A stretch of DNA of 64,000 nt from Amphiura filiformis. Lineage: Eukaryota; Echinodermata; Ophiuroidea; Amphilepidida; Amphiuridae. Location: NCBI RefSeq assembly GCF_039555335.1, contig NC_092640.1, forward strand, positions 39,104,295 through 39,168,294, written 5' to 3'. Position numbers and translations under genes: made by a program. This document shows positions 7,353-62,843 of this stretch, piece after piece. The notes beneath the pieces are model-generated. The model was not told the DNA's origin. It searched no databases and saw only the letters and a program-made list of their open reading frames with translations. Positions within the stretch are counted from its first letter, which is position 1. Each line of letters starts with the position of its first letter.

Positions 7353-9593
7353 TTGATAAGGTCGTGCAAAAACAATGAATTCATCAAACAATTGCGTATT
7401 GGACGCGATCGGTCGTTCCCTTTGGTTGCAGAAGACATGATGTACTCCTCAACGGAAGATTTGTTTTTCCTGGTGATACTGCCATGCGTTGCATTCATTG
7501 CCATTTCCATCAACTCTGCATTCATCTTTGTAGTCGTCCGTGTTAAAGATATGCAAACAATCATCAATGGCTACTTAACTAACGTTGCTGTTGCCGATCT
7601 GCTTTTTGTATTTCTTTCGTGCACTTACATCATTAATTACACGCAGTCCCTGGTTCGAAACGCTGTTATGTTTAAAACGTGGCTAGGATGCTTTGGAGTA
7701 TGGCTCGGAATCCATGCGCTGTATTTTGCATCCTTATTGCTGATAACGCTAGTAACAGCAGATAAATATTACGCCATATGTTACCCATTAAAGCACAGAA
7801 TGAAAGCGGGAAAGGAGCGCGCAATGAAAATAATCCTGTATTGTTGGATCACAGGAATCCTACTCGGTGTTATACCAACATTAAGATATTCTGACATCGA
7901 AACATATTGTATCATATGGCCTGAAAAAGATCGCGAAAGATTCGGTGAAGCTCTACCAACTAGTGTCCGATATTGTCAAGCTCCTTACCGTCTTACTGCA
8001 GTCGGGACTGCGGTGTCTGTATTCTGTCAATCTTTTGAGGTTATTTCATTCATTATTGTGTTGATTCTCAACATCTTCATTAGGGTGATTCAGAAATACA
8101 AAAGTTTTTATTTTTTTTTGGGCCAACATCTAATTTTGTTCATTTTGGTGTAAAAATGCATCATGCAAAATTTCATAAAATTTAGATCAACTTTGGAGGG
8201 TGCGCCCGGGCTTTGAAGTTTTGTACGCAAAGTCAATAGGGTTTTGGTGCAAAATTTTTTCTCCAACAGGTTTTTCACACAAAGACTCATCTTATGTGGG
8301 TGAATTTCTCAGGTGTGTTAGATACACATGTTTCCTATGTCAACCCATCGGAAATTTAAATCACCAAGTTCAAGATTGTCTATAATAATGAAAAAAGTAC
8401 ATTCAACGAAGAGGGAGTGAATCCTCTCAGTAGCACTGCTGATAGTTCAACTTCTTGTAACAGGCAAATGAATAAACTCCTGAATATTAACAAAGGCATA
8501 TGCACTATCTATTACAGGTTGTAACTGATTGTTACATAATTATCTAGCAGTATGAAAGAAGAAGACCTCCCACCATCAGACATCAAGTTGATATTGCAGG
8601 CTCCCATAATGCTTCCTGCATAATGCTAGGATTTCTAGCCATTATGAGTTATGAATAGAGCCATTTGATCATTAAACTCAATAGATACAATGCACCATGG
8701 GAAGAGGAGATGGACATTTTGTATTCTCTACAGTATTTCCAAGTGGATGACAGGTCATTGAAGCTGAAAATACAATAGAGAATATTTATACCATTCATTC
8801 ATTCTATTATAGGCTATCCTAATTATAATATTTTCCTTTGGTCAGAGGACTGGCCAAATGTTTAGCTGTTCTGTCTTCTGCTTTCCCACCATTGAAACAA
8901 TTGAGTTAATTTTTGAATTTTCTCCGCTTGTCAATATTTTCATTTAATTTTTCTTACATATTTGTTTCATGAATACCTAAGACTACATACTAACAGTTTT
9001 ATAGCATAGTTGGATAAGTTAATTATTACTTTCTGGTGGTTGAGTGAAAATCACCAAAAATCCTCATAGACTTCACACACAAAACTTCAAAGCCCGGGCG
9101 CACCCTCTAAAAATTATGTGAATTTCGTGAAATTGTGCATGATGTATTTTACACCAAAATGAACAATATTAGGGGTTGGCCCGTTGAAAAATCAAAACTT
9201 TTGTATTTTTGAATCACCCTAATCTTTATGTATGTCAACATAATAAAAGCTCTAAGCAACCGACCAATGCACACCGAACAAGACAACAAACTGACCCAGA
9301 TACCACAAGCTCAGAGGGTTCGCAACCAGGTCGCTCGTTTACTTGTTGTGAATGGTATAGTCTTTTTCTGTTGTCAAGCACCTTACCGTCTGCTCCCAAT
9401 TGAAGCCGTGTGGAAAGATGCGACAGGGCAGGAGTTTCTATCGGATGTCCAATATGGACGACTTTCTGTCATAGCGAGATGTTTGGTCCTCCTCAACTCT
9501 TTGTGTAACCCATTTATCTATTATACTACTAGCTCTCATTATAGGAATGGGTTTCGCCAAGCATTTTGTGGATGGAAAAAAGGCAACTGTTAA
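7353..9593 (+). pseudogene. GPCR copy 2, interrupted in TM5 by a hAT-like element
   Basis: Head-to-head paralogue of the 1774-2844 receptor. Coding parts are 7353-8080 (N-terminus to TM5, with TADKYYAIC and both ECL2 cysteines) and 9228-9593 (ICL3, TM6 with CCQAPY, TM7 with NPFIYY). A 1141-bp element at 8081-9221 splits codons of the TM5 segment NIFMYV. Both halves are in register if the element and one 8-bp target copy are ignored. Near the N-terminus it lacks one base relative to copy 1 (around 7399-7405), so the ATG at 7375 that matches copy 1 is out of frame; the upstream ATG at 7353 restores the frame with a different leader. As it stands, reading runs into the element and stops at 8151. 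Called a pseudogene unless the element is spliced out. Confidence 0.85.
8081..9221. mobile_element. Non-autonomous hAT-like DNA transposon with long TIRs
   Basis: 1141 bp bounded by TAGGGTGATTC and GAATCACCCTA, with inverted similarity over ~145 bp at each end (subterminal part includes GCGCCCGGGCTTTGAAG and its complement). It is flanked by 8-bp target duplications ATCTTCAT (8073-8080) and ATCTTTAT (9222-9229), with one mismatch. TAGGG-type ends with 8-bp duplications fit the hAT superfamily. No transposase frame is present inside. The insertion is in the TM5 codons of GPCR copy 2, and comparison with copy 1 shows the empty site. Confidence 0.88.
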
Positions 9594-13581: not shown

Positions 13582-14816
13582 TCATATGATATTGTTTTTG
13601 CTCTCTGTTTTAAAGGTATGTATGTAATTACTGATCTCAATAGACAGTGTATAAAGGAATGGATTAATTGAAGAATTTATAGGTAAAATAAAAGCCACTG
13701 TCCACGCGTACACTTCTGGTGACACGGTAACAACACCCAACTGTGCTAACAGACATACAAAGCCTAGGGGTATCCAGCACAAGAAATCCGTTAGAACAAC
13801 AAGGGATATCTTGAAAGCCATTCTTAAATCTTTTTCGCGTTGTTCTTGATTACTTGTGAACTTTGTAGATGACTTTCTTGCATCTCTAAAAACATTAATA
13901 TAACATGCAAGAATGAATAAAAAGCAAATTTGATTCACACCGATAAAAACAATGATTGAAAAGCCAATGTATGACTACTTACGAACGAATGGATGTATGG
14001 GATTGCTACTGTGGCCGTTTCATTATGAATACCAAATCTAAAATTAAATTTGACTCCTTTATTAAAAAAAATACTATCATACGCAAACTTATCTTGTGTG
14101 CCCCTCAAAAACCAGTGTGTGCTATAAGTGTAATCGTAGACTGTGTATAAAAAAGTCTGAACATTTAGAGAATGGGTACTTGATGAGATTTTTGTCCGTT
14201 GAACCATAGGTATTCCTATGCACACCTCAGCAATGTCTACGAAATTTGGATCAACATAATACGTTAAGAGCACTGGTATGGCGCTCATTAAGCATGCCAG
14301 AAGCCATACTATACCAATTGCTACTTTCTTGGTCCCGTGTCCGAATCCGATTCTCTCAAGTGGATATTTTACATTCAAACAACGATCTATGCTTATCAAC
14401 ACCAGCAAGAATACAGATGCTTCACTGGAAATGATAGACAAGATACTGATCATTTTACAAACAATCCCGTTTCGCCAAACTTGAGAGTAAGAAGGAAAAT
14501 AATCTGAATAGTAAAGATCCGCACATGCTAGAACAAGCATGTCTACCCCCATTATAAGGTCTGCTACGGCTAAATGAATTATGAATAGCTTTTTGTGTAT
14601 AGCTGCTTTATCTTTGAATAATCTCACATAAATGGTAATGAAATTCGTTACAATCGCCATCATGCCAAGTACCCATATTGAAAGACGAAGAAAAATTGAA
14701 GAAAACATTCTTTGGCAAGTCAAATACGCCGATTTTGAACGCGCAGGTATGCAATTTGTGTCGTTATGGATAAAACAGCATGAAGCATAATCACTCACCA
14801 ACACGATAGAATTTCT
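13582..14816 (-). CDS. 7TM domain of an LRR-containing GPCR (GRL101/relaxin-receptor-like), 3' part
   Basis: Reading begins in the extracellular hinge (VSDYASCCFIHND, two Cys pairs, TCQRMFSSIFLRLSIWVLG) typical of LRR-type receptors (LGR, GRL101), and continues through TM1 (MMAIVTNFITIYV), TM2 (LFIIHLAVADLIMGVD, with the conserved Asp), TM3 ending ISIDRCLNV in place of DRY, and TM4 (IGIVWLLACLMSAIPVLL). Around 13960-14190 the frame changes before TM5 (FSIIVFIGVNQICFLFILACYINVF), TM6 (LTDFLCWIPLGFVCLL) and TM7 (INSSINPFLYTLS, NPxxY kept). The change could be a short intron, though no strong junction pair was found, or a frameshift. The stop is at 13582. The upstream end joins the ectodomain frame exactly once the hAT-like element at 14817-15902 and one target copy are disregarded. 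Confidence 0.85.
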
Positions 14817-15902
14817 CAGGGGCGGCGCCAGGGTATTTTGATAGGGGGGGCAAAACAATTTTGTAAATTTTGTATGCAGCGCGGCAGCGGTCGTCGTCAC
14901 TTGCGCGACGCAGAAGTGTCTGAGGGGGATGTGCCCCCCTCAGAATTTAAAAAATTTCCAAAATGAAAGCACAAATGAAGCCATTTGATGCACCATTTTC
15001 ACCTTTTTAGGCTTATTTATTTATTTTCCAACCTCATATTTTTATGGATTTCATTCACGGGCCCGACTTTTAGCCCGCTGGTTTTAGGCATGGACCTACT
15101 CAATTAGTTAATCCAGCACCTTTTGGCAACAAAATAAGTTCATGGTACAAATGTGCACAAAGTGAAATATGGTGGAAACGTTAAATAAAGTCGCGCGAAG
15201 CGCGAAAAATTTGGCACTTTTTAGGTTAAAATGGCCAAATATGAGGTTACTTTGGTCAGAAACCCACATACAGGCGTCAACATTGGGGAATGATTGTATG
15301 GACAATCTACCCTATCAAAATATGGGGGATTTATACCCCAACGCACAGTCGCAACGCTCAGTTGCATTGTACTATATGATATGCCGGGCTTTTATTTAAA
15401 TATAAATTGGCACGATAAAATGATATGAATGGGGGTGTCTTGAGGTTGGAAATAATTGAAAGCCGCAATCAAGAGCATAGGCGGGAGGTAGTCGCCCCAC
15501 CCCCCCCCATGATCACTAAACGCCGCAAATGTCCACTTTGCGAGTCAGAAAAGGACAAAATTTGCCATTCGCGAGTGTAGCGAGCGAAAGAAGTTGGGAG
15601 AAGGCAAGAGAGGCCATGTGACATTTATGGGGAAAAATTTGCCGAAAATGGGCCCAAAATATAAAAACCAACAACTTTAAAACCTCGTAGGTCAGCATTC
15701 CACAAGGGCAAGATGTCCGAAGGGGAGTTTCCTCCTTCTAACCATGGCCAGGGAGGGAATGCTCCTTTTCTTCTTCTCTCTCTCTTTTTCTCCCCTCCTT
15801 TTCTCTCTCCTTCTTCTCTTTCTCTTTTCCTTCCTTTTACCTCTTTTTGAAAATCATAGGGGGCAATTGCCCCCTTGCCCCCCCCTAATGGCGCCGCCCC
15901 TG
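14817..15902. mobile_element. Non-autonomous hAT-like element inside the LRR-7TM receptor gene
   Basis: 1086 bp with perfect 14-bp TIRs CAGGGGCGGCGCCA and TGGCGCCGCCCCTG. Perfect 8-bp target duplications GAATTTCT lie at 14809-14816 and 15903-15910. CAGGG ends with an 8-bp duplication are characteristic of hAT. Subterminal G/C runs (GGGGGGGCAAAAC; TTGCCCCCCCC) and a pyrimidine tract at 15765-15845 are present, with no transposase. It sits exactly between the LRR ectodomain and the 7TM hinge of one receptor frame. Confidence 0.92.
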
Positions 15903-18900
15903 GAATTTCTTACAGGTATAAATGAATATTCCGAAACAAGTTTGAGAGGGTTATTTCTGAAATCAACGACCTGAATTCCCGTGAGCTCACAAAATTCATC
16001 ACACATGTTATTTAAGAAATTATCCGAAACATTCCACATTTTAAGAGTGCTGGACAGATTACTACCTGTGAAGTTGAGGGAAGTCAACTTGTTTTGCTGC
16101 ATTTCAAGGTATTCAAGGGATGGTAAACTCGTAAATTCATTTACACTTATCTCAGACAATTGATTGCCAGCCAATTTCATGTAAACAAGTTTGACAAGAG
16201 TTTTAATTACTAGTGCAGAAATGACACTAATACGATTGAATCCAAGATCTAAAATTCGTAGATTCTTCATATTATTGAATAATTTTGATGGTAAATGTTG
16301 TATTTCGTTTCTTGTTATGTTCAAATATTTTAGGCGATTAAAAGTGCTCTTCATCAATGCAGTCAAGTTTTCCAAATTATTATATTCAAGTTCAAGTGCT
16401 GTAATAGTAGTTGGATCGCTAAATGACGGTAAAACTACAATGTTATTACTCTGTAAACTCACAAATTCAAGTTTCATTAAAAATTTGAAAATGTTTTTGG
16501 GTAACTCAGTCAAAATATTATTACTTAAATCGAGTGTAACTAAATTTCTTGAATCATTGAACAAAAAAGACGGTATTCTGGATATGTTGTTATTAGCAAT
16601 ATCAATTGCAAGTACATTTTTCATATTATCAAACGCACCAGGAGATATATATGCAATTTGGTTATTTTCTAATTTCATGATCTTTAAACCGGGTAATGTA
16701 TTGAAAACATCCTTTGTCAGCGATGTTAGAAAATTGTTACTGAGATCTATAAATTGTAGATTTGTTGTTGTTTCAAATACCTGTGACGGGAGATCTTTCA
16801 GAAGGTTAAATTGAAGTGTCAGAGTATCTAGAGAGGCTAAAGTATCGAACAGACCGTTTGGTATTTGTGATATATGGTTATGATCTAAGCGTAGAAATTT
16901 GAGTTTAAATAGATTTGTAAATACATTGTCTATCATTATAAGCTTATTAAAGCTCAAATATAGTGAGCGCAAAACTTTACAATCTTCAAAGATACCATTC
17001 GGTAGAGACGTCAAATTGTTTTGGTCTAGACGCAAAACAGTTAAATATTTGAAACGTTGGAATATTGTTTCGTTTAGGTTCGATAAGTAATTGTTCTGCA
17101 AGGAAAGGCGTTTCATGTATACAGTACTCATATATCCAAAATATTCTAATATGCGATTGGAAGAAAGGTCCAACGTTTTAAGACGACAAAAACGATTAGC
17201 AATAAATATATTATTAGGCAAGAAAGAAATTAGATTTGCTTTTAGATTCAAATAATATAAATACCGATATTCTCTGAGCCAATCAATGGTACCTATTTGA
17301 TTGTTTGCAAGGTTTAGATATCCCAAATCTTGTACAATATCTTTACTTGTAACATCTAACATGGTTTTCAAGTGATTATTTCCCAACTGTAGCCGTATAA
17401 TATTGGCTAGAATATCAAACATGCCACTGGGTAGTTCGCTTAAAAAATTGTGTTGAAGATATAGAAATGTTACATTCATGATACCCTCAAAATGAAATAA
17501 AGACAAGCTAGTTAAACGATTGCTATTTAAACGTAATTCAGTCAAGGAAATTAAGGAATGGAAGATAGTCTTTGGTAATGAATTGATGCTGTTAAAATCC
17601 AAACGAAGACATGTCAGAAAAGTTAGGTTTGCAAACAAATTACTTGGTAATTGTTTTATGCGATTAGATGATAAATACAATTTATCTAACAATGGAAATC
17701 GATCACTGTGAAAAGCATCAGGATGTATATCAGTTATTGAATTATTTGATAAAACCAATTGCTGTAAATTACTTAAAACGCCAAATGAAGTGTTCGTTAT
17801 TTCAGTCAAAAGATTATTATCGCAAAACAGAGCTTCTAAGGCATGGAGATGAGTGAAATATACTTCTGACAAAACTTGCATTTTGTTATGACTAAGATGT
17901 AGCCACGTACAATCGTGAAGCCTTTCAAATGCGTCAGGGGCAATGTATCTCAAATTATTATAAGACATATCTAATGACATCACAGTCATATCTGGTACTG
18001 AGTTAAAATGAAGATATTGATCAAGTTGGTTAAATGATAAATCGAGTTCAAATGTTTCGATACCATCGAAGAAGCTTAGGTCATTAATAGAGTTTGCGCT
18101 CAGATTGACATAGACTAAGGTGAACTGTTTGACAAAATTGAACAAATCGGCATGAAATCTTAAAAGCCTATTATTATCCAACTTGATGGTTCGCACCCTA
18201 TCCAGATCATCAAATGCCGAGAATTGAATATTTGCTATTCTGTTATAAGACAATATAAGCTTGCCTAAATCATACAAGCCAGCAAATGACCTATTTGAAA
18301 TATGACCAATGATATTATGATCTAACATAAGAATCTTCAATTTTGTAAGTGTAATAAAAGTATCGTCCTTAACATCTTGCATATCATTATATTGCAATTC
18401 AAGTTCATTTAATCTGGTGACTGAAGTGAACACATAATACATATTTATTGAAAGTAATTGATTTCCAAGTGCATACAGATATTCTAACTCCTGTAATGAT
18501 TCAAAAGCATCAACATTAACATATCGTATCTTATTAAAGGCAAGAGATAGGTATTTTAACTTTGACAAATCGCGAAATAGATCATTTGATACGTTACTGA
18601 ATGAGTTGTAAGCTAAATCAAGAGCGTATAAACTGCTAAGATGCTGAAACACATGTGAAGGAAGATGGGTTAAAGAATTATTATTAAGATACAATACTTC
18701 TACCTTAAGTTTGGCAAATATCTCTTCTGGTAGAACAGAAATATGATTGTGGCGCAACTCAAGTTTAGATAACCAGTAAAGTGGATCAAATACGTGACCT
18801 GGCAATGACGATAAAGCATTGTTGTTTAAAAATAGTTCTTCTACGTAAAAGTGTCCCTGCTGTCCGACGAATGCATCTTCCGCAATACTCCCAAATCCAG

Positions 18901-19762
18901 AATGGCCAAAATCAAGTGAATACATCCGCTTCTCATAGACCAACAGAGTAGAATGTTTGGTTCCGTTTTTGTAGATAGTCCAAATATTTCTGTAGCCTAA
19001 ATTGCAACTACTAAGAGCCGGGCATCGAAACTGTACTCTATACCTCAGTTTATCTACATATGGAAAATTTGAGTTTATTTTCTTTACTTTTTGTATGTCA
19101 TGGTGCATAGTAACATTGCAGGGTTCCTTTTCTTGGGACAAAAATTTATCGTACGCATATCCGTTTGTTACTCGAAGTTGAACATAGTGGAGATGGAAAT
19201 CAACCGAGAAATTTGATGATATTTTCAAATTACATTGTAAGTTATTACTATTTTCGTTTTGGTTTATTTCAATCGACGAGTATTTTAAAGGACAATCAAT
19301 GCATTCTATATGCTCAAACCACATGTAGCTGAATGTATCGTACTCTTTCAAATTCGTAATTCGTATTGAATAGGACGTGTTGATATCACATTGAAGAAAT
19401 GTACCTTTGCATTTAGAAGTCGCCGTACTTTCGTATAATACAGAACAATTCGCGGAACGTCCAGCTGCGTTGCAAGCGATTTCATCTTCCATATTATCTC
19501 TTTCACCGTGAAAACTTGACCACATCCAGTATTGTGGGTTAGCATACAAAAAATAACTGTCATTTGTAATAACATATGAATATGATACGAAGTCATATGA
19601 TGCCTCGCGTTCAGTATACTCGATAGCATCTTGAAATGCTTCATATAGGCATCCCTCAGTGTACTTATCGTTGTATACCATGTATACAAGCAACAACAAG
19701 AAGTTCCTTAAAAATAAAAATGACGACATGATTGCCAGAAATACTGAGCCACCAAATCGCAA
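15854..19762 (-). CDS. Giant LRR ectodomain of an LRR-containing GPCR (5' part)
   Basis: 1302-codon frame. The N-terminus has a hydrophobic stretch (FLFLRNFLLLLVYMVY) that could be a signal peptide, or start at Met12. Residues ~30-285 are a Cys-containing region I do not recognise. From ~290 to ~1255 there is a continuous array of ~24-residue LRRs of the xLxxLxLxxNxL type (LPSHVFQHLSSLYALDLAYN is one), roughly 35-40 by length, with no intron. A C-terminal Cys cap (MCDEFCEL) follows. Native sequence ends near residue 1287 (VRNS); the last ~16 residues are read from the hAT-like end. The next native codons are at 14808 and below, in the same phase, leading to the 7TM domain. This is an LGR-type receptor of the LRR-rich GRL101-like group; the ligand is unknown. 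With the element present the ORF would give a truncated ectodomain only. Confidence 0.9.
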   Translation of the reverse strand: MRFGGSVFLAIMSSFLFLRNFLLLLVYMVYNDKYTEGCLYEAFQDAIEYTEREASYDFVSYSYVITNDSYFLYANPQYWMWSSFHGERDNMEDEIACNAAGRSANCSVLYESTATSKCKGTFLQCDINTSYSIRITNLKEYDTFSYMWFEHIECIDCPLKYSSIEINQNENSNNLQCNLKISSNFSVDFHLHYVQLRVTNGYAYDKFLSQEKEPCNVTMHHDIQKVKKINSNFPYVDKLRYRVQFRCPALSSCNLGYRNIWTIYKNGTKHSTLLVYEKRMYSLDFGHSGFGSIAEDAFVGQQGHFYVEELFLNNNALSSLPGHVFDPLYWLSKLELRHNHISVLPEEIFAKLKVEVLYLNNNSLTHLPSHVFQHLSSLYALDLAYNSFSNVSNDLFRDLSKLKYLSLAFNKIRYVNVDAFESLQELEYLYALGNQLLSINMYYVFTSVTRLNELELQYNDMQDVKDDTFITLTKLKILMLDHNIIGHISNRSFAGLYDLGKLILSYNRIANIQFSAFDDLDRVRTIKLDNNRLLRFHADLFNFVKQFTLVYVNLSANSINDLSFFDGIETFELDLSFNQLDQYLHFNSVPDMTVMSLDMSYNNLRYIAPDAFERLHDCTWLHLSHNKMQVLSEVYFTHLHALEALFCDNNLLTEITNTSFGVLSNLQQLVLSNNSITDIHPDAFHSDRFPLLDKLYLSSNRIKQLPSNLFANLTFLTCLRLDFNSINSLPKTIFHSLISLTELRLNSNRLTSLSLFHFEGIMNVTFLYLQHNFLSELPSGMFDILANIIRLQLGNNHLKTMLDVTSKDIVQDLGYLNLANNQIGTIDWLREYRYLYYLNLKANLISFLPNNIFIANRFCRLKTLDLSSNRILEYFGYMSTVYMKRLSLQNNYLSNLNETIFQRFKYLTVLRLDQNNLTSLPNGIFEDCKVLRSLYLSFNKLIMIDNVFTNLFKLKFLRLDHNHISQIPNGLFDTLASLDTLTLQFNLLKDLPSQVFETTTNLQFIDLSNNFLTSLTKDVFNTLPGLKIMKLENNQIAYISPGAFDNMKNVLAIDIANNNISRIPSFLFNDSRNLVTLDLSNNILTELPKNIFKFLMKLEFVSLQSNNIVVLPSFSDPTTITALELEYNNLENLTALMKSTFNRLKYLNITRNEIQHLPSKLFNNMKNLRILDLGFNRISVISALVIKTLVKLVYMKLAGNQLSEISVNEFTSLPSLEYLEMQQNKLTSLNFTGSNLSSTLKMWNVSDNFLNNMCDEFCELTGIQVVDFRNNPLKLVSEYSFIPVRNSRGGAIRGGQGGNCPL

Positions 19763-26500: not shown

Positions 26501-29500
26501 AGACAAAAAAAATGAGGGACCTATTGGTTAGCAGGAAATACAAAAGGGGTTCATTAGCTTTCATTGAGTAATAGGATCAGAGACAGGGGTAATTGGGTAG
26601 AAGCTGATCTAAATGGAGGGGGGGGGTCTATTGACTGGTACATGGCGCGTGCTGGTATATGGAAGTACCTCCCGGGTCCACAACAACTTCAGCTGCTAAT
26701 TTTATACAGTCAAAGCATAAGCTAATACCTTTTGTGTTTGCACATGAAAGTCATTTATAACAACACATATTGCAAGTACTTCTCTAGATAAACAAGCATC
26801 CATGATTCCATAATGATAGTGTGACTCATCCACATGGATTGTATTGCACTGTTATTGGAGGGTGAGATGTCAGTAGCAAATGGCGAAACTAGAGGTCACA
26901 AAGGTCACGAAGAGAGGAAACAAGGTGACCAAAGCTTCGTGCTAACGTATATTACATTTTGATTTTGAAAAATGAAACGCTTAGAAAAACGTCGATACTA
27001 TCAGGACAATGACCAAACGGAACGCCTTCATTACATCGCGCTTAAAGCAACTATTTTAAACAGCATCTTGCGAATAATAGTGAGCTTTGGAAAAAAAATT
27101 GCATTTATCATTTCATAGCGAGTGTGTAGAAGAATTCAAATATCACAGTAATACTTTTGTAGGTCCTCTGGTTCTTGAGTTATGTTGTAAAGAGGGCTGA
27201 AACAACAACACTTTTGTAAAACGTACATAATTTTAATATTAACAACAATAAATCAAACAAGTTTTCAAAGTATATGATTTGTAGAATGAACTTTTGCAAA
27301 ACATCTAAGTGTTATTTTTCAATAATATATTGATTAAGAAAATGAAAATTAGCGCTCAACTTATCACCGCTTACACGCGAAATCTTTGCGGTTTTTTTTG
27401 AGTTCGCTAAAGCACCCCTTACTTTCCCACTTCAAACTAGATTGCATTCCTCCCAACCGTTTCCATTCCACCACAAGGTTTGCAATGCAAAACGTAAAAG
27501 AGAACTGTTAGACAATAACATATAAATGGTCACTGTACTCTAAAGCTTGATTCAATTAAAGTTCAGTAAAGCTTGTATAATTGCCTAATTGCATAATTTT
27601 TATTGATCAAATCAAAACTTTTGGTACTAAAACGAATTTGCTTAACTTAAATCAATCATACCAGAACATTTCGACAAGAATGCACCATTTCCAAAAAGCA
27701 GTTTCACTCACAGTTTCAGGTGATGTTTGTAATAAATAGAATGGTGATATGGCACAAAAATAGACTAACCTGTGCAGGTTACTCCATCCCCACCGTAACC
27801 GGCATTACATGTACATGTGAATGAACCAACGGTATTAACGCAAACAGCATTTTTTGCGTCGCAGTTATCAGTACTGGAAGAACATTCATTAATATCTGTA
27901 CAAAAATGTATAGAATAAGTCACGTGTAATAGGTTAAACTCAGATGTTGAGTTATGATCAAAAGAAAAGTTTAAATATTTCATGTACTCTGAAACATGAT
28001 ATAATGAAAACTCAATAACAATTGAATAAATTTAAATTGGCTTTCCTTGGCAACATAATGAATCATTTTTGATTGATCAAAGCACAAATATTGTTACTAA
28101 AACGAACTTGTTTTAAAAGTCTACTGATATCAATCATACAAGAAAATTTCGACAGGAATGCACAATTTCCAAAAAGTAGTTGGACTGGCGTATAGGTGAC
28201 AATTATTTGAAATAAATAGAATGGTAATATGGCACAAATTAGACTAACCTGTGCATGTTATTCCATCGCCACTGTAACCATCATTACATGCACATGTGAA
28301 GGAACCAATGGTATTAGTGCAAGCAGCATTTGTGTTACAGTTATCGGTACTCGAAGTACATTCATTAATATCTGTACAAAATGTATGAAATAAGTAAATG
28401 TATTACGTAAAACATCGATGTTGATGTATGATCAAAAGAAAAGTTTAAATATTTCATGTACTCTAAAACATGATATAATGAAAACTCAATAACGCTTGAA
28501 TGAATTTAAATTGGCTTTCCTGCAACATAATGTACTAAAACGAACTTGCTTTGAAAGTCAACTTATATCAATCATACTAAAAAATTTCGACAGGAATGTA
28601 CCATTTCCAAAAAGTAGTTTGACTCGCGTATAGGTGACAATTATTTAAAATAAATAGAATGGTAATATGGCACAAAATAGACTAACCTGTGCATGTTATT
28701 CCATCTCCACTGTAACCGGCATTACATGCACATGTGAAGGAACCAATGGTATTGGTGCAAGCAGCATTTGCATCACAGTTATCGGTTCTCGAAGTACATT
28801 CATTAATATCTGTACACAAACGTATAAATAAGTTATATGTATTACGTAAAACTCAGATTATGAGGTACGATCAAAAGAAAGTTAAAATATTTCATGTAAT
28901 TAAAACTCAATAACGCTTGAATAAATTTAAATTGGCTTTCCTTGGCAACATAATGTTTCCTTTTTATTGATCAAATCACAACTATTGGTACTAAAACGAA
29001 TTTGCTTTTGAAAAATTCGACATAAATGCACCGTTTTCAAAAAGTAGTTTGATCAGCATGTAGGTGACAATTATTTGAAATAAATAGAATGGTAATATGG
29101 CACATATTAGACTAACCTGTGCATGTTATTCCATCGCCACTGTAACCGGCATTACATGCACATGTGAAGGAACCAATGGTATTAGTGCAAGCAGCATTTG
29201 CGTCACAGTTATCGGTACTCGAAGTACATTCATTAATATCTGTACAAAATGTATGAAATAAGTAAACGTATTACGTAAAACATAGATGTTGATGTATGAT
29301 CAAAAGAAAGTTAAAATATTTCATGTACTCAGAAATATATAATTAAAACTCAATAACGTTTGAATAAATTTAAATTGGCTTTCCGTGGCAACATAATGTA
29401 TCATTTTTATTGATCAAATCACAACTATTGGTACTAAAACGAATTTGCTTTTGAAAAGTTCGACATAAATGCACCGTTTTCAAAAAGTAGTTTGATTAGC

Positions 29501-32500
29501 ATATAGGTGACAATTATTTGAAATAAATAGAATGGTAATATGGCACAAATTAGACTAACCTGTGCATGTTATTCCATCGTATTACGTAAAACATAGATGT
29601 TGATGTATAATCAAAAGAAAATATCTCATGTACTCTGAAGCATGATATAATGAAAACCTCAATAACGCTTGAATAAATTTAAATTGGCTTCCATTGGGAA
29701 CATAATGTATCATTTTTGACTGATCAAAGCACAACTATTGTTACTAAAACGAATTTGCTTTGAAAGTCAACTTATATCAATCATACTAAAAAATTTCGAC
29801 AATGCACCATTTCCAAAAGGCGTATAGGTGACAATTATTCAAAATAAATAGAATGGTATTATGGCACACACAAAATAGACTAACCTGTGCATGTTATTCC
29901 ATCGCCACTGTAACCAGCATTACATGCACATGTGAAGGAACCAGTGGTATTAGTGCAAGCAGCATTTGCGTCACAGTTATCGGTACTCGAAGTACATTCA
30001 TTAATATCTGTACAATATGTATGAAATAAGTCACATGTATTAGGTACAACACAGGCTTTGAAGGTACTAGGGTCATTCAAAAAGTTCTGCTTCCACCCTC
30101 TTATCTCAGCTTCTGCAAGTAGTAACGCTTTCATATTTTCTATGACTACAACTTTGTTATAATATCTTTTTCCATTTGTTGTAGGCGAAGTAAAAATGAA
30201 ATCAGGATTCAGTGCCGCGGAAAAGGAGAAAATCTGTACATATGTCTACAAATACAAGCAATTGTATGCTTGAACGCGCAGCTCGTATGCAATAAAGCAG
30301 GTTGAAACCGCGGTAGTGTTCCAGGATACGCAATGACAGAGTAATGGCGGCTTACATATTTGTAGATATTATTTGCCAGCTGTCATATCCCAATTGAAAT
30401 AATCCCTGGTTAAGATGCATTTTATTACTTGTCATCTTGCTGTTTAGTTACACATTTGATGTCGTTTCAGTTATAATCTGTTAGCATAATCATAGCACTT
30501 ACACCAAAAATATGGGGGATATAAAATTATTAAGGGCTTGTGACTATTACAATTTTCGGGTCTACGATAAACTTGATGTTTGGGTCAACGCTGTTGATAT
30601 GCTCCGTGAACTCTTGTATTTTTTTAGTCTTAATAACCATTAACCACGAAGGTATCGTCCACATAACGATGCCAAACCGTGGGTGGAGAGGGAGCAGAAT
30701 CTAAAGCTCCCTTCTCAAATCACTCCATAAATAGGTGGGAATCACAAGCGAGCAAGCCGAACCCACAGCCGCGCCATGACATTACTTGGAGAACGGTCCA
30801 TCAAACACACAATAGGTGGTAGAAAGTGAAAATTTAAGCAATCTGAGCACTATGTCTTGGTCAAAGTTTAAGTATGTCCGCTTCTTCCACGAGTCGTGCT
30901 CCTCCAAAGTGAGCTTGATGGCGTCGATCGCACTCTCTGCTGGGATGCTGGTTAATAAGGCCAACACATCGTAGGACACTAAGAATTCATCACTTTCAAT
31001 GTGCAAATCCTTGATCAATTCTTGAGCAAGTCATAATGGGTAAAACGTGGATTTTAAGTTATGATTAATTGAAAAGTTAATATTATTCTTGTACTCTGAA
31101 ACGCTTGAATACATTGGCTTTCCTTGGCAACACAATATATCATGTTTAATTGATCACATCGCAAATATTGGTACTGAAATGAAGTTCAGTCCAACGTCTT
31201 TGCGGGCTATTTCACGTTCTCAGTTAGGCAATAGAAACAAATTAGTTCGATCTTTCGATCGACCATCGATGCTTGGTCGATCCTTAGTATTTATAAAATT
31301 AATTAATTAACCATTATTAAGTGTGTTAACATAAAAATCTTTTCCTGTATTGATATTGAAAAATATAAATTTAGCATTAATTCTAATTAATTAATCATTA
31401 GTTCATTAATAACAAGCATCGAATCAGCATCGACGGTCGATCCAAAGATCGAACAAATTTGTTTCTGGTGCCTTATCCACAGCGACTTCCGGTGTTTAGC
31501 CTTGATTTCCAGCTCAAGTGATTAGCTCTACTTAGTGATTTGTTCTCTTTCTCGACGTTTTCTGCAGCGCAAGACGCGGAAGTAAATTATAGCCGCTGCA
31601 AAAGACGCTGGCGGAAGTTTAGCCGCTGCGTCTGTCGCAATGGAACATCACCCGCAACACGTCGCAGTATAACCTGACCTATTAACGCGTATAATGTTTC
31701 CTTTGCTGTTGCTTTTTTATTCCATTATAATTACCTTTTTGTTCTGGATATTGTCGTCGGTGACACACGTTAACGTACACTCCAATGCCAGTCAGAATAT
31801 TGCTAATAACAATAATCATGAGAACAGCACTACCCCAACGCAGTTTCTTGGACGTGCAAATGACGCCATGCGAATTAGTTGTACGAGCATCTGCCACTGT
31901 AATATGCAGAAAACCAGTAAAACAGTTGACATTACGTATTCATTATGCTATCCATTCACTGTTCAGAAAATGCGCCCAAGCCCAGTGATTGTCAAGTACA
32001 GTAAATGAGCAACAGGAAGGGCACAGGTTTATTATGATTATTTGGATGCCAGTTTTAATTGTGAAACTTAATACCCTTAGGGACTAAATTTGTATCATTC
32101 TTGTGTATTGAATCGATTAATAAAAGTAGCCATTGCACGATAGCCAGAGTTCTGGAACCACAAAATTATAATAAGCTGGGTTTAATTCCACGGAACGGAC
32201 GTACAAACTTAACACAATATCAGGATTTTTACGTGAAATACACGCAAAAATAAGTGCGTTCAGCACGTATGAACGCGCGGACAACTTATGCAGAAAATAA
32301 CAAAATGTGTACGTTTTATAAACATACGCAGAAAAGTTTAACTATTAATGTGATCCATTTTGTTTAGAAATCATTATAATATTAGCAAAAGTGAGGTGTA
32401 AAAAATCGACTTCATTCATAAGTGCGGTTCATACGCGCAGATCTGCCGTATAAAAAGGAGGTTAAGATTTGCATATTTGATACAGACGTCCACTTTTAAC

Positions 32501-44202: not shown

Positions 44203-47200
44203 CTGCAGAAAAAAAAAGGAATTTAATAATTATTAGCGTTTTGACACCTGTTTTTTTAAACATTAGGTATTGCCCAGGTGTGCGTTTTTTCATGCATTAT
44301 TGTATACTATAGTTTAGGTGGGGAACGTTGGTTTGTTTTTAATGATACTGGAGACAGTTTATCTTGCTCATGTAGTAAAATATAGCCCTCTCCGGACTGA
44401 AACCTACCGTGTTGCTCCAGTAAATCTCTGCAAATACGTTTGTACTCGGTAGAGGCTCGTAGCTTAGCAAAAGCTGGGTTCCACCATTCCCACATAGTAT
44501 TGTCTTTTCGCATCATCATAGACTGGCCAGCAATAGCGCATTGAGCTGTGAAGCCCGGAATAACTTCCACCATATCGGAATCTTTCAAGTAAACAACTGG
44601 ATCAAAGCCGGCATCTACCTGTTGTTGAAGACGATGAAATGGAAGAGCGACCCATAAGTTATTTAAAAAAAATACTTCTTAAGGTACACCCTAATCGGTA
44701 AATCAATGTTTCAAAGGTAAGGTCTTGAGACTCTCTGAGATTCAAATTCACCAACATGTCCTGAACAGTCTGTATTCATGGTGGTTTACATTGTAATTAT
44801 ACTTTTTATTGCGACTTAGCTATAGACCGTAAAAGAATGAAGGTAACAGTTATGTTCACCACTGTATACAAAACAGTTATGTTCACCACTGTATACAAAA
44901 TTAAAACACGCAGCCAGTACCTGAACACATTAGCTCTGATTTAAGACTTCCGTTTTTGAAATTGGTTGAGAATTAAAGAAACGGTGATCTAAAACCCAAG
45001 GAAGTAACGAAATCAAACATTGCATTATGTTAATCAATGTAAAGCACGGCGCTAGTTTTAATGTGCAAATCAATGGAAGCACGGCGCTAGTTTTCTTGTT
45101 CGAGAAAGTTTTGTGTACAAATCAATAGGGCATGCAATGGAGCAAGCTGCAACTTTTGAATTGCATCTTATTTGGGTTTTGGATCATCGTGTCTTTATTT
45201 CTAGAACGATTTAAACGAATGAGGTCTTAAATTCGAGATCTTTGTTTTTGTTTTGCAGTCTGTATAGCTGAGACAGAATAAGCTTGCAACAACATGGCAT
45301 ATAAAGTAGCCCAAACCCCATCATCTACAGGTTTGAGTGGTGATTTTATCTCGTAACTTCGTTCGAGATTCCGTGAGATCCCGTTTGCGCACGCGTGGTC
45401 AGAACGTTCGTGCAACGTGTGTGTGTGAAGCACATTTTGTTGTCGATAAGATAATTTCTTGCAAGAAATTACCTAATTTCATAATAATCTTCGAATAAGC
45501 TTGGGGATTATTATTCTTATATATATTTGGAATAAGATATATAAGTGTCTGAGATTGTCATTCTCTAAAATGGAGAAAACTCGGGTTGAAGATTCCACGC
45601 CGAGCGCTGGAAACGGCCAAAAGGACTTACTGCCGAATTCGGCAGCCAAGAAGCCGAATACCGCAGCCAAGGCAAAGGCGAACAGAGCTGATAAAACTCC
45701 GACCAAGGCTGTAAGCAGCTCCGGAACGGACATTACTAATATGCAGAATGAAATTGGGAAGTTAGCCCAAACAATGAACATTCAACATAAGCAGCAAACA
45801 GCTTTCCAGAACATGATAATACAACTGTTGACTCCTCCTTTTGGGGATATGGACGATAACAGTTCAGTTAACAGTGATGGCATGCCTGGTGATACACTCC
45901 CCGATAAATCGGGGATGTATAGATTCATTGACCTTAATGATCATGCTATTTCGGACAGTGAATATAATGATGAAGACGAACCAAGTGGAAGCATTGTTGG
46001 GATAGCCGTAGAATCAAAAAAGGGCGATGTGAATGACATTGATAAGTCAAATACCACTGCCAGTGGCTCTCAGGTGGATACTGAGGGGATGGACATTGGG
46101 TTTGCCCAGCGTTTTGCTATTCCTTTGGAGGAAGGTGAACCTATCAGACAAAAACAGCCCCTACCATGTGGCTGGATGGCAATCCGGCAAGAGAGGTGGC
46201 AAATCGGCTGCAAGCACATTTGCCAACCCCTTTTTAGGGAAGAATGTCTATCAGCAGTTACTGAAAGCAGCTCAAATGACTCAAGACCAATAACAGTATC
46301 AACAGAGACCCAAGTTCCAGAACCAAGCCAGGTTCTCACCGAATCAGGCGACACAGTCACAGCCCAAGAAACAGTAAAGACTGCAGACAAAGCAAAGCAG
46401 GTAAGATTGCCTGAAATAAAACAACTTTCTGTAGGTCAGTTGAGGCTAAACAAATGGAGAGAAATTACAAATGATAACTCCATTTTGGAAGCTGTTTCGG
46501 GGTATAAATTAGAATTTGAAGGCTCACCACCTTTTCAGTTCTGCATCAGGGGCGTAGCCAGCTTTTTTTGGTGGGGGGGGGCAAAATAAAAATTTGGGGG
46601 CACAGACGAAAAAAATTGCAGTTGCATCATACAATACATAGAGACTGTATGTCTTCGAGCTTCCCGAAAAGGGCCTTATTGGGATGATGTGCGCGCGTAG
46701 CGAGAACAAAAATGGTATTTTACACTATTTTCGCCCATTATCCGGCTAAAATAGGGCTTTATTGTTACAATGTGCGCGCGTAGCGTGTAAAATGTTTGTA
46801 TTTTACACTATTTTGGCCCTGAATTTTGCTAGAAAAGGGGCTCCTTGCCCTTTTTCTTTTCCTTTGCCCTCCTGATTTTCTCTTTCATTTTTTGTCAGAG
46901 GGGCACTTTTTCTTTCATTTTTTTGTCAGGGGGGGCACTCTGCAAATGGACTCTCTTCGGGCCCTAGAATATTTACCAAAGTGCTAAAGCCTCCTTTTGC
47001 CAAGTTACGTGAACTTGGACATAGTATTATGGGCTATATAGATGATACTCTTATAGTTTCAAGTTCCAGTGAAGATACAGAACAGACAATTAACAGTACC
47101 TCACAGCTGTTGACAGAGCTGGGGTTCTCAATACATCCTGATAAATCAATATTTACTCCGGTTCAGAGGATCGAGTTTTTAGGATTTATTATTGACTCAA

Positions 47201-50200: not shown

Positions 50201-53200
50201 TCGTACTGTTGAGAATATATCACAATTTAGAATAATGCCCTCTATTGAATGGTGTCAATGCTGTTACAGTAAAGGCCCATTCAGTGATTTGCTCATCAGG
50301 ACGATCGTAAAAATCATTAAAATTCAGATTTTGGTACCTTTGTCATTGTCATAGATGTGCTAACATTGCCTGCGAGTGGTTCAACCGAAAGCCGTGTATT
50401 TAAGACAAAATAAGACACTGTAATTTAGATACTGTATTACTATAATGTATTTGAATGGGGCTTCAGCTTCGTCAGTATTGCTGTTTTCTCCGTTTTTTGC
50501 CAAATTTGTCATTTCAAAAATACCAAATGACAATTTGACTTATCCTTCACTTTTAAGCAATTTATAAACAATTTTAATTTTTTTACACTTGCGCTGGGAT
50601 CACTGAATGATTCTTTAAGGTTACATTCTGTTACATGAATGTTAGTTGTAAGCCATTGCTATTTCCAGTCAGTGGTTAGGGTTAGGGAATAGGGTTAAGG
50701 TTATTGAGTAGGGCTAGGGTTAGGGATTAGGGTTATTGTTCGAGTTAGGGATTGGATTGGGATTAAGGTTAGGGTTAAGTTAGGGATTAGTGTAAGGGTT
50801 GGGGATTTGGATTAGGGTTAGGGATTAGGGTTATGGTTAGATTTCCATAGTATTGACTAAACTTAATGTAACAGCATGAAAGCATGGTGAATGTAACCTT
50901 AATGGGCTATTTCCATTTCCCCTAACCTTAATATTTACCCCGTAATTTCCCTCATTCTTTTAGGAACTGCTCTCGATCGGGGACAAATAAGCTTGTTAGA
51001 TATCAATAATTTGCGGTTAGTGCTTTTTTGTATCCCTAGTTAAATACGGTTCAGCTTGGTTAGTGGTTCTTGTTTTAACGATTGGTCAATTGTGATATAT
51101 TCACAAAGTAAGGAGACTGGGTTGGTAGACTCGGTAGAGATTTATTCACTTTAGTCTAATCTATAAACTACAAACTGTTCCTGGGAGAAACTGTTCAAAA
51201 CATATGAGGCCCCATGTCACAGGGGAAGTTGCCCAACATTGTCCAAAATTGTTAAAAGAGACCAAAGTTACACAAAGTTGCATTAAGTTGCCTAAACATT
51301 TTGCAAAGTTGCGCAAACTTGCCAAAAGTTGTCTAAACATTTTGCAACGTTGCCCAAGACTTTTTATAAAGTTGCATAAAATTGCGTCAAGTTACTCGGG
51401 ATAAATGCAAAGTTGCACAAAATTGCAAACATTTTTTTGTCAATTATGACAATTTTGGACAACTTTGAGCAACTTCCCCTGTGACATGGGACCTCATATG
51501 GCATTTGATTCATAAAGGAAATGTCACAGTGCTTCAAGCTGTGACCATATGGGAAATTACCAATTGTGAGCAATAATTTGTAGCTACCGTTTTGGCATAC
51601 TTCTGTTTAGTTCAAGTGAACAGGGTACATACAAAATGATGAAACTCACTTCTTCGTTTTGTATACCAGCCACAAGTTGTTCACGATCCAAATAGTGTAT
51701 CACGTTCTCTGGTGGTATCGGTACACCCTAAAAATACAGAAAAAAGATGTGCGTTGTGTAAAATCCTTGTTACATGTTTTTCGTTGAAGTATACATGAAC
51801 TTCTTATCGTGCTAAAAACGCAGTGATTTACAGTGCGCTACGCAAATGCACAACGCCAAGACGTCGATCCACAAGCCTCAGCACACTTTACAGGTTGTCG
51901 CTGACCACTATGCCCGGGGGGCCACTGTAATGGTGAAGGGGGGTATCAGGCGCGTCCGTAAATTCACGTAAAAAGGGTATTTTTTCAGACTAGGGTACGT
52001 TACGTGAATAGGGTATCAAATTCATGTAAAATTGGTGTAAAAGGGTATGTTTTTGGAGCTCTTACGTACGTAGAGTAGTTTTGCCAAGTTTGGGATTTTG
52101 TGCTTTCTCCTTCATTCATGAAAAGTAAAAGGAAAGTGTCTTCTTCCTACACCCCAAAAGCAGTTAAAAGCCATCTTTTAGCTGTCAGAGATGACAGATC
52201 CCTATACTGGCCCAGCTAGCATCCTAAACACGAGGTCCCCGGACAAGGCAAGAATATACAACCAATCAGCATGCTTTTCCTTAACTGTGGAGTCAATAAA
52301 TTATGACGAGAAATATAAGAGGATTTCCGATTGGCCGAACCTCTTTAAACTCATTAATATTCATAGTCTTGGTGGCTTCCAGCCCAGAAAATTTGGTTGA
52401 TCGGAACATGGTCTAAAGGAGCAACAAAGCAACCACGAACTTCTAGGTTTGTAAACAAGCTGTGTCAATGAACTTTTGACATGTGTGAAATTTTACCGGG
52501 GTATTTACAAACACAACGATTGAATAATTTGGAACTATTTTGGCTTTCTTAAAATATAAATCAATGAGTTTCAGGATTTTGGTTGGGTTTACCACTAAAT
52601 CCAGTATGATAATTAATGCTCTAGGATGTTTTAAATCGAGACGAAATTAGGAAATAAACCAAGCTAAACTGGCCGTGTTTGCCGTCTTCTTCCAACTTCA
52701 ATGTGTGGTTTGCAATCGCCATGGTCGTAATTTGCGTTGGACTTGCAGTTCAAAATTCTCTTGGATATATGTGGAGAAATGGGTACATCCCAATCCCAAA
52801 GAATAAATTCTACAATATTTCAATAAAAAGGGTTGGACCTGTGATCCAAAAAGGGAAATTATTGGCCCAAAAATCTTGAAAATATTGGACATACTGCATG
52901 AACTTTGAGGTAAGCTTTAGCACCAGGTAAACTTGTATGGCTCAAAATTCAGACGGCTTGCCACAAATTGCTAGCCCTATCATGCCACTCGCCGCCTGGG
53001 TTCTGTGTGTTTACTTGTTGCATCAATTACTTGTTTAGGGTTGGGGAAAAGCAACTTATACTTGTTTAGGGGGGAAATTTCAGTCTCGGAAATACTTGTT
53101 TAGGGTGCTTTTTGAGAGTCCTCGGACGCGCCTGATACCCCCTCTTGACACTATAGTGCCCCCCGGGCCACTATGGTCCCACATCAATCCACAAACCATT

Positions 53201-60779: not shown

Positions 60780-62843
60780 CAAATTTGAATTGAAATTTCT
60801 TGACTTGGTAACGTTAACTATGTGTAATTAGCCTGCGCAAGTCGAAAAAACGAGTCCTTTCAGCTAATGAGTGGCAGCGCCGCATGCGTTGTGGGAAAGA
60901 AACGTATCTATCTATCGTACTTGTTTTATACTTAGTCTATTAAACTATTAAACACGGCGGAACAAAATCGCCATGCGTGGCTGTTAAAGAACTAGTGAAT
61001 TCGACCTACTCTAATGGTAATTTCTAACACAAAGATCATGAAGATATCGGCTTGATGACGCTGTGCTTTGATAGAATCTGGTACGAATCCTAACACAGTT
61101 ACACCACGGAGTGTGGCTTGTGTCGAACGATGCGAAAGGAGCCTACATGTTTGCCTATGTTGAAAGCATTCTACATTTCCAAAACAAACAGTTTATATTA
61201 TTGTCCAAAATCCTGTGTAAATGGTTCTCAACGCTACACAGATATTATCCTCGAAAAAAAACTGGACAAAAAGTTGTGCCCCCCCCCCACCCGTTCCGAA
61301 AACCTGGCTATGCCACTGACAACTGCTTATACAGTGTAACGTTATCTAGCAATATACACTCTGTATATGCCCCATATAGTTCACCGTTTTACGTTCATTT
61401 TATAATTTAACGCATGAAGGCCATACATAGCCGCACTTAAACCAAAAACTTTGATGTTTTGCAAAACTTCATTCTACAAATCATATACTTCGAAAACTTG
61501 CTTGATTTATTGTTGTTAATGAGTTATGTACGTTTTATAAAAGTGATGTTGTTTCAGCCCTATTTACAACATAACTCAAGAAAAACAGGACCTATAAAAA
61601 TATATCAGTGATATTTGAATTCTTCTACACGCTCGCGATAAAATGATCAATGCAATTTTTGCCAAAGCTTACTACCATTCGCAAAACTAGCAAACCGCAT
61701 TAACAGTTTGAAATAGTTGCTAACCTTTACAACTGGAGAAATTTAACTCAATCTTTGAGTCATTGTTTTGGCAATAGACCTCCATATTGTAAAGGTTGAA
61801 AACACTATGTGAAAAAACCGAACCAACTAGAACTTATTTAACACCCAATTTAACACCAAATGCCCATAAACAATAATTTTAATCACCTCTTTAATAACTT
61901 TATTTTGCTTCTCTTGAATACACACTGTTTGATGCCAATATTTAGCCATGCAGACAGCGACCTCCCAAGAAATGATACACTAAAGTGACTAAATTTACTT
62001 TACCTTGATAATTGTCAAATTAGCATGATTAGGTACAGATAGTACAAAATTGTTCGTTTCGCTCAACAGATTTTAGACTTTTTAGTCATGCGAAGTTAAG
62101 TAATTCAACAGAGCGGAATGACTATTTCTACAAAATTTTGAATAATTGATAAATATCCTGTTTGATTAATTAGTAACAATATATTTGCACGATATTGTTA
62201 TTTTCCAGTACTAGCATAATAATTGTCCGTCAGATTGCACTTTACCAATTAACTTAGTCGTAATTTTATAAAGTGCCAAAACAAAAGTAAAAAAAACCCC
62301 AAACAAACCAAAAACAAACAAACCGTGACTACCTTTGTGAAAGACGTTCACAGGCCTGTTGGTAAGTACAAACAAATTATTTGATCGCTGATTATGTCAC
62401 TGTTTAGGTATATCTCAGTACCAACAAACGTTACAAACGTAAAATAAACCCCAAAGCTAAAAGTATTCCTCGTGTCTTCATCATTTTTCAAACCTGCATC
62501 TTTTTTTAGTCTTTTGTCATTTATGGATTTTTCCAGTAAAATTATATATTTTGTATAAACATTTATTTACTGACAAATAGGAAAACAGTGCCAGACAGTT
62601 TGCTCTTTAACACTTCTTCGTGTACAATTATTGTATGGACCATTTTCGTAATACTGTGTTTTGACCGGAAGCGTATTATTGTTTTGGAACCATACATGTA
62701 AACAGCGCCTTTCACATATCAATGCATTTCGCATTTATTCCGCTGTCGTTAAAAAATGTCAGCTGCCATACAATGCCCAAGGCATGCTCATACCTATGGG
62801 CAGCGCTCAATGAACAATATTCCTAACAGCTCCCCATTTCACC
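60780..62843. other. Intergenic with a dispersed repeat
   Basis: 61450-61670 is an inverted copy of 27080-27320 (TTGATTTATTGTTGTTAA, GTGATATTTGAATTCTTCTA). A C-run and CCTGGCTATGCCACTG at 61270-61315 resemble a truncated hAT-type end. No gene recognised. Confidence 0.5.

Follow-up and report, generated by a model that had tools for sequence, protein, structure and literature searches.

Leucine-rich-repeat-containing G protein-coupled receptors (LGRs) combine an ectodomain of leucine-rich repeats (LRRs) with a rhodopsin-type seven-transmembrane (7TM) domain. Their types A, B and C are listed with 7-9, 16-18 or about 10 LRRs in an excerpt of PMC4561518; in ambulacrarian LGRs each repeat usually has an exon of its own (passages of PMC8286064), and echinoderm LGRs of the GRL101 type carry several LDLa modules (passages of PMC8286064 and PMC6267866). 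DNA transposons of the hAT superfamily have CAG-type terminal inverted repeats (TIRs) and 8-bp target-site duplications (TSDs), according to the sections of PMC4298943 and PMC3517528 used here, and the latter source gives limits of 5-27 bp for the short TIRs and under 4 kb for the element. In this study, we analysed a window of 64,000 nucleotides from Amphiura filiformis (GCF_039555335.1, contig NC_092640.1, forward-strand positions 39,104,295 to 39,168,294; coordinates below are those of the window), in which a hAT-like element appears to have been inserted into the coding exon of an LGR-like receptor gene.

The receptor gene lies on the minus strand (19729-13582), and the element, 1,086 bp in length (14817-15902), is located inside its coding frame. 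The TIRs, CAGGGGCGGCGCCA, are complementary at 14 of 14 positions and stand directly between two exact copies of the octamer GAATTTCT, so that the insertion is fixed to the base, as claimed in the original prediction made from the same sequence. The gene-strand codons AGA-AAT occur in the same phase at both target copies, which had also been predicted, and the joined flanks form a single open frame that extends stop-free from the LRR domain as far as the sequence preceding the fifth transmembrane helix (TM5). The insertion point falls between the LRR C-terminal cap and the hinge with the 7TM domain. The joined frame and the TIR and TSD anatomy thus support the proposal that ectodomain and 7TM domain belong to one exon cut by a 1,086-bp hAT-like insertion, and we see hardly any doubt that the insertion occurred into a once continuous coding exon.

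The exact octamer copies agree with the 8-bp duplication of the hAT superfamily, the 14-bp TIRs and the length of the element lie within the size limits given above, and the ends start with CAGGGG (CAGGG-type), in agreement with the hAT descriptions in the excerpts of PMC4298943 and PMC3517528. We scanned the window for inverted ends of at least 8 bp with an exact 8-bp duplication, the ends being at most about 3 kb apart. Six places were found; four had palindromic octamers and were simply longer inverted repeats, which left the element at 14817 and one at 51913-53167. With the same criteria, 200 first-order Markov shuffles of the window yielded 44 pairs in all (43 with non-palindromic octamers), where the longest TIR was 12 bp and none of the 200 shuffles reached 14 bp.

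Continuity across the insertion was also seen in comparison with known structures. The query consisted of the C-terminal 479 residues of the joined protein, read through with an X at the frameshift described below, and 18 distinct PDB sequences matched it with E-values of 1e-10 or lower, RXFP1 being the best (8.4e-31). RXFP1 residues 320-550 aligned with query residues 24-254 in a stretch that spans the junction; this alignment has a single-residue gap at the junction and two short gaps elsewhere, and it fits one continuous exon. When only the TM1-TM4 half served as query, the top match was LGR4 (56.3 bits), with RXFP1 at 53.0 bits.

Features of the split receptor gene and of the inserted element (window coordinates)
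Feature	Position	Strand	Remarks
LRR ectodomain half	15903..19729	-	first Met at 19729, then hydrophobic leader (by eye); no stop
TSD copy 2 (8 bp), GAATTTCT	15903..15910	.	exact; immediately outside TIR
TIR CAGGGGCGGCGCCA	15889..15902	-	14/14 complementary
Putative non-autonomous hAT-like element, 1,086 bp	14817..15902	.	TIR and TSD anatomy; six-frame scan
Read-in from receptor to element	15854..15902	-	end of hybrid Ser codon, 15 foreign residues, TGA
TIR CAGGGGCGGCGCCA	14817..14830	+	14/14 complementary to opposite end
TSD copy 1 (8 bp), GAATTTCT	14809..14816	.	exact direct repeat flanking TIRs
Hinge, TM1-TM4, long second extracellular loop	13982..14808	-	in frame with ectodomain once flanks are joined
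Probable frameshift just upstream of TM5	13975..13985 (about)	-	two 7tm_1 matches, adjoining in the profile, lie in different frames
TM5-TM7 and C-terminal tail, other frame	13582..13974	-	Pfam 7tm_1 profile positions 153-260; RXFP1 alignment

Both parts that define an LGR were recognized by Pfam (LRR_8 and 7tm_1), and they come together only in the sequence without the element. Counted from its first Met, the ectodomain frame reaches the insertion after 1,275 codons, with no stop or frameshift over about 3.8 kb. We counted about 40 LRRs by a loose pattern and 10 by a strict one; Pfam LRR_8 covered 20 stretches, and the length of the LRR region favours the higher number of repeats. The four NCBIfam families returned for the ectodomain were all LRR proteins, with scores far below the cut-offs. 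Ahead of the LRRs lies a region of about 290 residues (18797-19729), with 11 Cys in the first 300 residues of the protein, for which we found no Pfam match, and a single-sequence AlphaFold model covering the 311 N-terminal residues was of no use, with a mean pLDDT of 32.8. PDB matches of the receptor include RXFP1, FSHR, LHR, TSHR and LGR4, and the gene looks LGR-like, nearest to RXFP1 over the whole 7TM domain, with seemingly many more LRRs than the published types. It shares with relaxin-receptor-like LGRs (RXFP1, GRL101) the LRR ectodomain, a short hinge with Cys residues and the rhodopsin-type 7TM domain. It differs from them in the about 40 LRRs (loose pattern), in its long second extracellular loop and in having the whole frame in one exon, which is broken twice. 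The LDLa module, the mark of type C LGRs (RXFP/GRL101), was found in the receptor neither by Pfam scan (E up to 0.01) nor by pattern, and it could be located in an unseen upstream exon. No other copy of the receptor was detected in the window by tblastn with either half. Among viral contigs no relative of the 7TM half was matched, and none of the 11 pattern stretches returned from genome contigs (a prokaryotic collection) was confirmed; absence from these collections says little.

The frame of the receptor ends inside the element at a TGA codon (minus strand, 15856-15854). This stop had been predicted after 16 foreign residues; the stop itself was found as predicted, while the 16 residues comprise a hybrid Ser codon and 15 residues that are wholly foreign. 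A second lesion, or a sequence error, was overlooked in the original prediction, namely a frameshift in the 7TM half before TM5. The first 7tm_1 match stops at profile position 156 and the second starts at 153, and they are separated by about 200 nt of extra sequence in the second extracellular loop (13975-14204), which exceeds that of RXFP1 by about 72 residues and is directly followed by the frameshift. The surplus stretch is stop-free for 62 codons in the first frame (chance about 0.02 on the local background), and its codon usage resembles that of the flanks, a weak test with scores near zero for all G protein-coupled receptor (GPCR) segments. Our preferred reading of the surplus and the frame change is that the loop is long and that a frameshift comes after it, at about 13975-13985. 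Alternatively, both features could be explained by an intron within 14225-13975, for which TAG/TCA is, by eye, the sole fitting acceptor; the best-scoring phase-0 donor, at 14225, would delete the residues VC of the loop, and we favour this intron less than the long loop with a frameshift.

Taken together, the locus is best explained by a non-autonomous hAT-like DNA transposon that inserted in a single-exon LGR-like receptor gene of the animal, presumably with the help of a transposase encoded elsewhere, and with duplication of 8 bp of the target. Unspliced transcripts through the element would then yield no more than an LRR ectodomain that lacks a membrane anchor, that is, a product with a leader-like start (by eye) and LRRs and with no 7TM domain. 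The present copy is very probably non-functional as a receptor, and most likely a pseudogene or a pseudogene allele. We assign a probability of roughly 0.85 to this reading as a whole, in which the hAT-like insertion split a single-exon LGR-like receptor and left a pseudogene or pseudogene allele. The original prediction had left the choice between a secreted LRR-only protein and a dead receptor. Both outcomes were framed without the frameshift before TM5, and a dead copy becomes more likely because this lesion is present besides the insertion. Since the frameshift would remain, removal of the element would still give no full receptor from the present copy, unless the frameshift is an error in the sequence.

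Several points weigh against this reading. The hAT label is based on the ends and the duplication length only, the six-frame scan revealed no transposase-sized frame in the 1,086-bp element (the longest stop-free stretch has 91 codons), and a second full copy was not found within the window. The target consensus of Ac elements is nTnnnnAn. For Buster elements nnnTAnnn is given in the excerpt of PMC3517528. The octamer GAATTTCT / AGAAATTC at this locus fits neither, and it represents a single site, on which a consensus is not to be judged. The part of the read-through query upstream of the junction adds little score, as the RXFP1 stretch across the junction reached 55.2 bits versus 53.0 bits for the TM1-TM4 half alone. 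The frameshift before TM5 could be a sequencing error, the ectodomain is intact over its whole length, which may mean that the loss is recent or that the ectodomain is still selected, and splicing by frame-keeping GC-AG pairs within the element is possible on paper.

The last of these points was addressed by a scan for splice pairs with donors at 16300-15857 and acceptors down to 14500, in which a stop-free frame into the 7TM half was required. Splice scores came from a frequency matrix; the firm part of the result is the frame arithmetic only. The scan returned 212 frame-keeping pairs (123 GT and 89 GC), and a donor-like CCT/GTAAGA lies 3 bp upstream of the octamer. If such a pair were used, the element would be spliced out as an introner-like intron and a receptor with a short added stretch would still be made. 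Introners (transposon-derived introns) that carry TSDs and TIRs and add few residues are on record in the portion of PMC9860276 considered here, and the locus shares with them a TIR- and TSD-bearing element in a coding exon and frame-keeping GC-AG pairs. It differs in that no frame-keeping GT-AG pair near the boundaries retains the whole 7TM domain and in that a single copy is present. All four GT pairs with donors within 60 nt upstream of the target copy (15970-15913) use a poor acceptor before 14588 (-5.5), and pairs ending there drop the hinge and TM1; the donors of the other 119 GT pairs lie upstream of 15970, at the cost of LRR or cap residues, and no GT donor inside the element kept the frame. 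A normal intron at exactly these boundaries had been named as the finding that would speak against an insertion, and little was found in its favour, as no good GT-AG pair exists there, though GC-AG pairs in the element keep the frame. The donor lies within the element in 50 of the 89 GC pairs; in 12 of these the exon starts at or above 14709, and 11 of the 12 retain the hinge, the exception being the one at 14709. Use of the GC donor GGG/GCAAGG at 15878, with the exon resuming at 14814, would excise 1,064 nt, most of the element, and lengthen the protein in frame by exactly ten residues, and another in-element GC pair, with CACATCCCCCTCAG and an exon from 14919, also retains the 7TM domain. 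However, GC donors are rare, the acceptor of the ten-residue pair is composed of the element end and the target copy and is poor (-4.5), and every splicing option leaves the frameshift before TM5 in place. We consider it very improbable that a receptor is made in this way.

Alternatively, the insertion could have converted the gene to a secreted LRR-only protein that is still in use, e.g., as a ligand decoy, with transcripts ending at polyadenylation signals within the element and the 7TM half decaying. AATAAA motifs are present on the gene strand inside the element (15396, 15025 and 15021), the sole frameshift lies in the 7TM half, the ectodomain frame is free of lesions, and a soluble RXFP1 splice product is reported as a relaxin antagonist in an excerpt of PMC4561518, where it is described as the LDLa module with a linker and not the LRR domain. 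However, the probability that a lone lesion falls in the 7TM half is 0.24 by length alone, so the asymmetry between the halves is not significant. Youth of the loss also explains the intact ectodomain equally well, since under neutral drift a lesion-free ectodomain bounds the divergence since the insertion at about 0.5-0.9%, assuming indel-to-substitution ratios of 0.05-0.15 and a whole gene free to drift, a bound that selection on the ectodomain would void. The perfect 8- and 14-bp repeats, on which the word "recent" in the original prediction rests, bound the age of the insertion weakly. A secreted protein still in use thus seems unlikely to us, and we regard as quite unlikely that a conversion from receptor to secreted protein is in progress, in which the transposon supplied the stop and the polyadenylation signals, the ectodomain is selected as a soluble binder and the orphaned 7TM half decays. 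Compatible with the pseudogene reading is a further explanation, in which the gene has other alleles or copies besides the present one, and an intact version with neither insertion nor frameshift exists elsewhere in the genome or in the population. The perfect TSD and TIRs and the intact ectodomain are consistent with a young insertion, and a neighbouring GPCR family in the window has both intact and broken copies; against this stands the lack of a second receptor copy in the window. We hold such an intact copy to be quite possible, at somewhat less than even chances.

With respect to its family, the element shares with non-autonomous hAT transposons (Buster2_NA, Mar and similar) the CAG-type TIRs, the 8-bp target duplications and the lack of coding capacity, as described in the sections used of PMC4298943 and PMC3517528, where the TIRs of the compared elements are CAGGGGTGGCCAACCT and CAG(G/A)GGTAGGC. 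It differs in its 14-bp ends (CAGGGGCGGCGCCA), its length, the one copy seen and the octamer outside both consensuses. Because no transposase was found and the octamer fits neither family consensus, the label "hAT-like, non-autonomous" marks how far the evidence reaches. Exact-pattern searches gave 0 matches each, both in viral contigs (tips of the element and an internal pattern) and in genome contigs of the prokaryotic collection (a single tip pattern), an absence that says little. Literature searches for the TIR string, on receptor truncation by transposons and on intronless or expanded LGRs returned nothing on point among the matches listed. A tip resembling that of the element (CAGGGGCGTAGCCA; 79% over 43 bp) was noticed at 46547-46589, where a frame of 370 codons with no Pfam match ends; the window holds no convincing second end for it, the nearest opposite-strand candidate (61305-61318, 2 mismatches) being nearly 15 kb away. 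The element-like sequence at 51913-53167 is 1,255 bp long, with CCCGGGGGGC inverted ends, an exact 8-bp duplication (CCACTATG) and no long frame.

An element (insert at about 8080-9222) also splits another GPCR gene of the window, at 7407-9587, near the end of TM5 as judged by eye. The two rhodopsin-type pieces, 7407-8087 and 9222-9587, show 92% and 95% protein identity to an intact paralogue at 1777-2850, which displays the empty site. This insert has inverted ends of about 170 bp (TAGGGTGATTC...) that are 84% alike, and it is flanked by the octamers ATCTTCAT and ATCTTTAT, one base apart by eye, i.e., an imperfect 8-bp duplication; the automatic repeat search returned only an unrelated 7-mer here. 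Relatives of the intact copy are also present as partial GPCR copies in several frames at 844-1718, and a tandem array built from units of about 440 bp occupies 27590-30067. Two receptor genes cut by two different elements within 64 kb suggest a region rich in transposons, in which many copies are broken; the insertion described here is therefore less surprising, and such events look ordinary in this region.

The locus provides a clean example of a non-autonomous DNA transposon dividing a coding exon, useful mainly for dating insertions and for annotation, as gene finders may call two genes here, a secreted LRR protein and an orphan GPCR. If it were true that the ectodomain is expressed and selected, the locus would show a one-step origin of a soluble decoy receptor.

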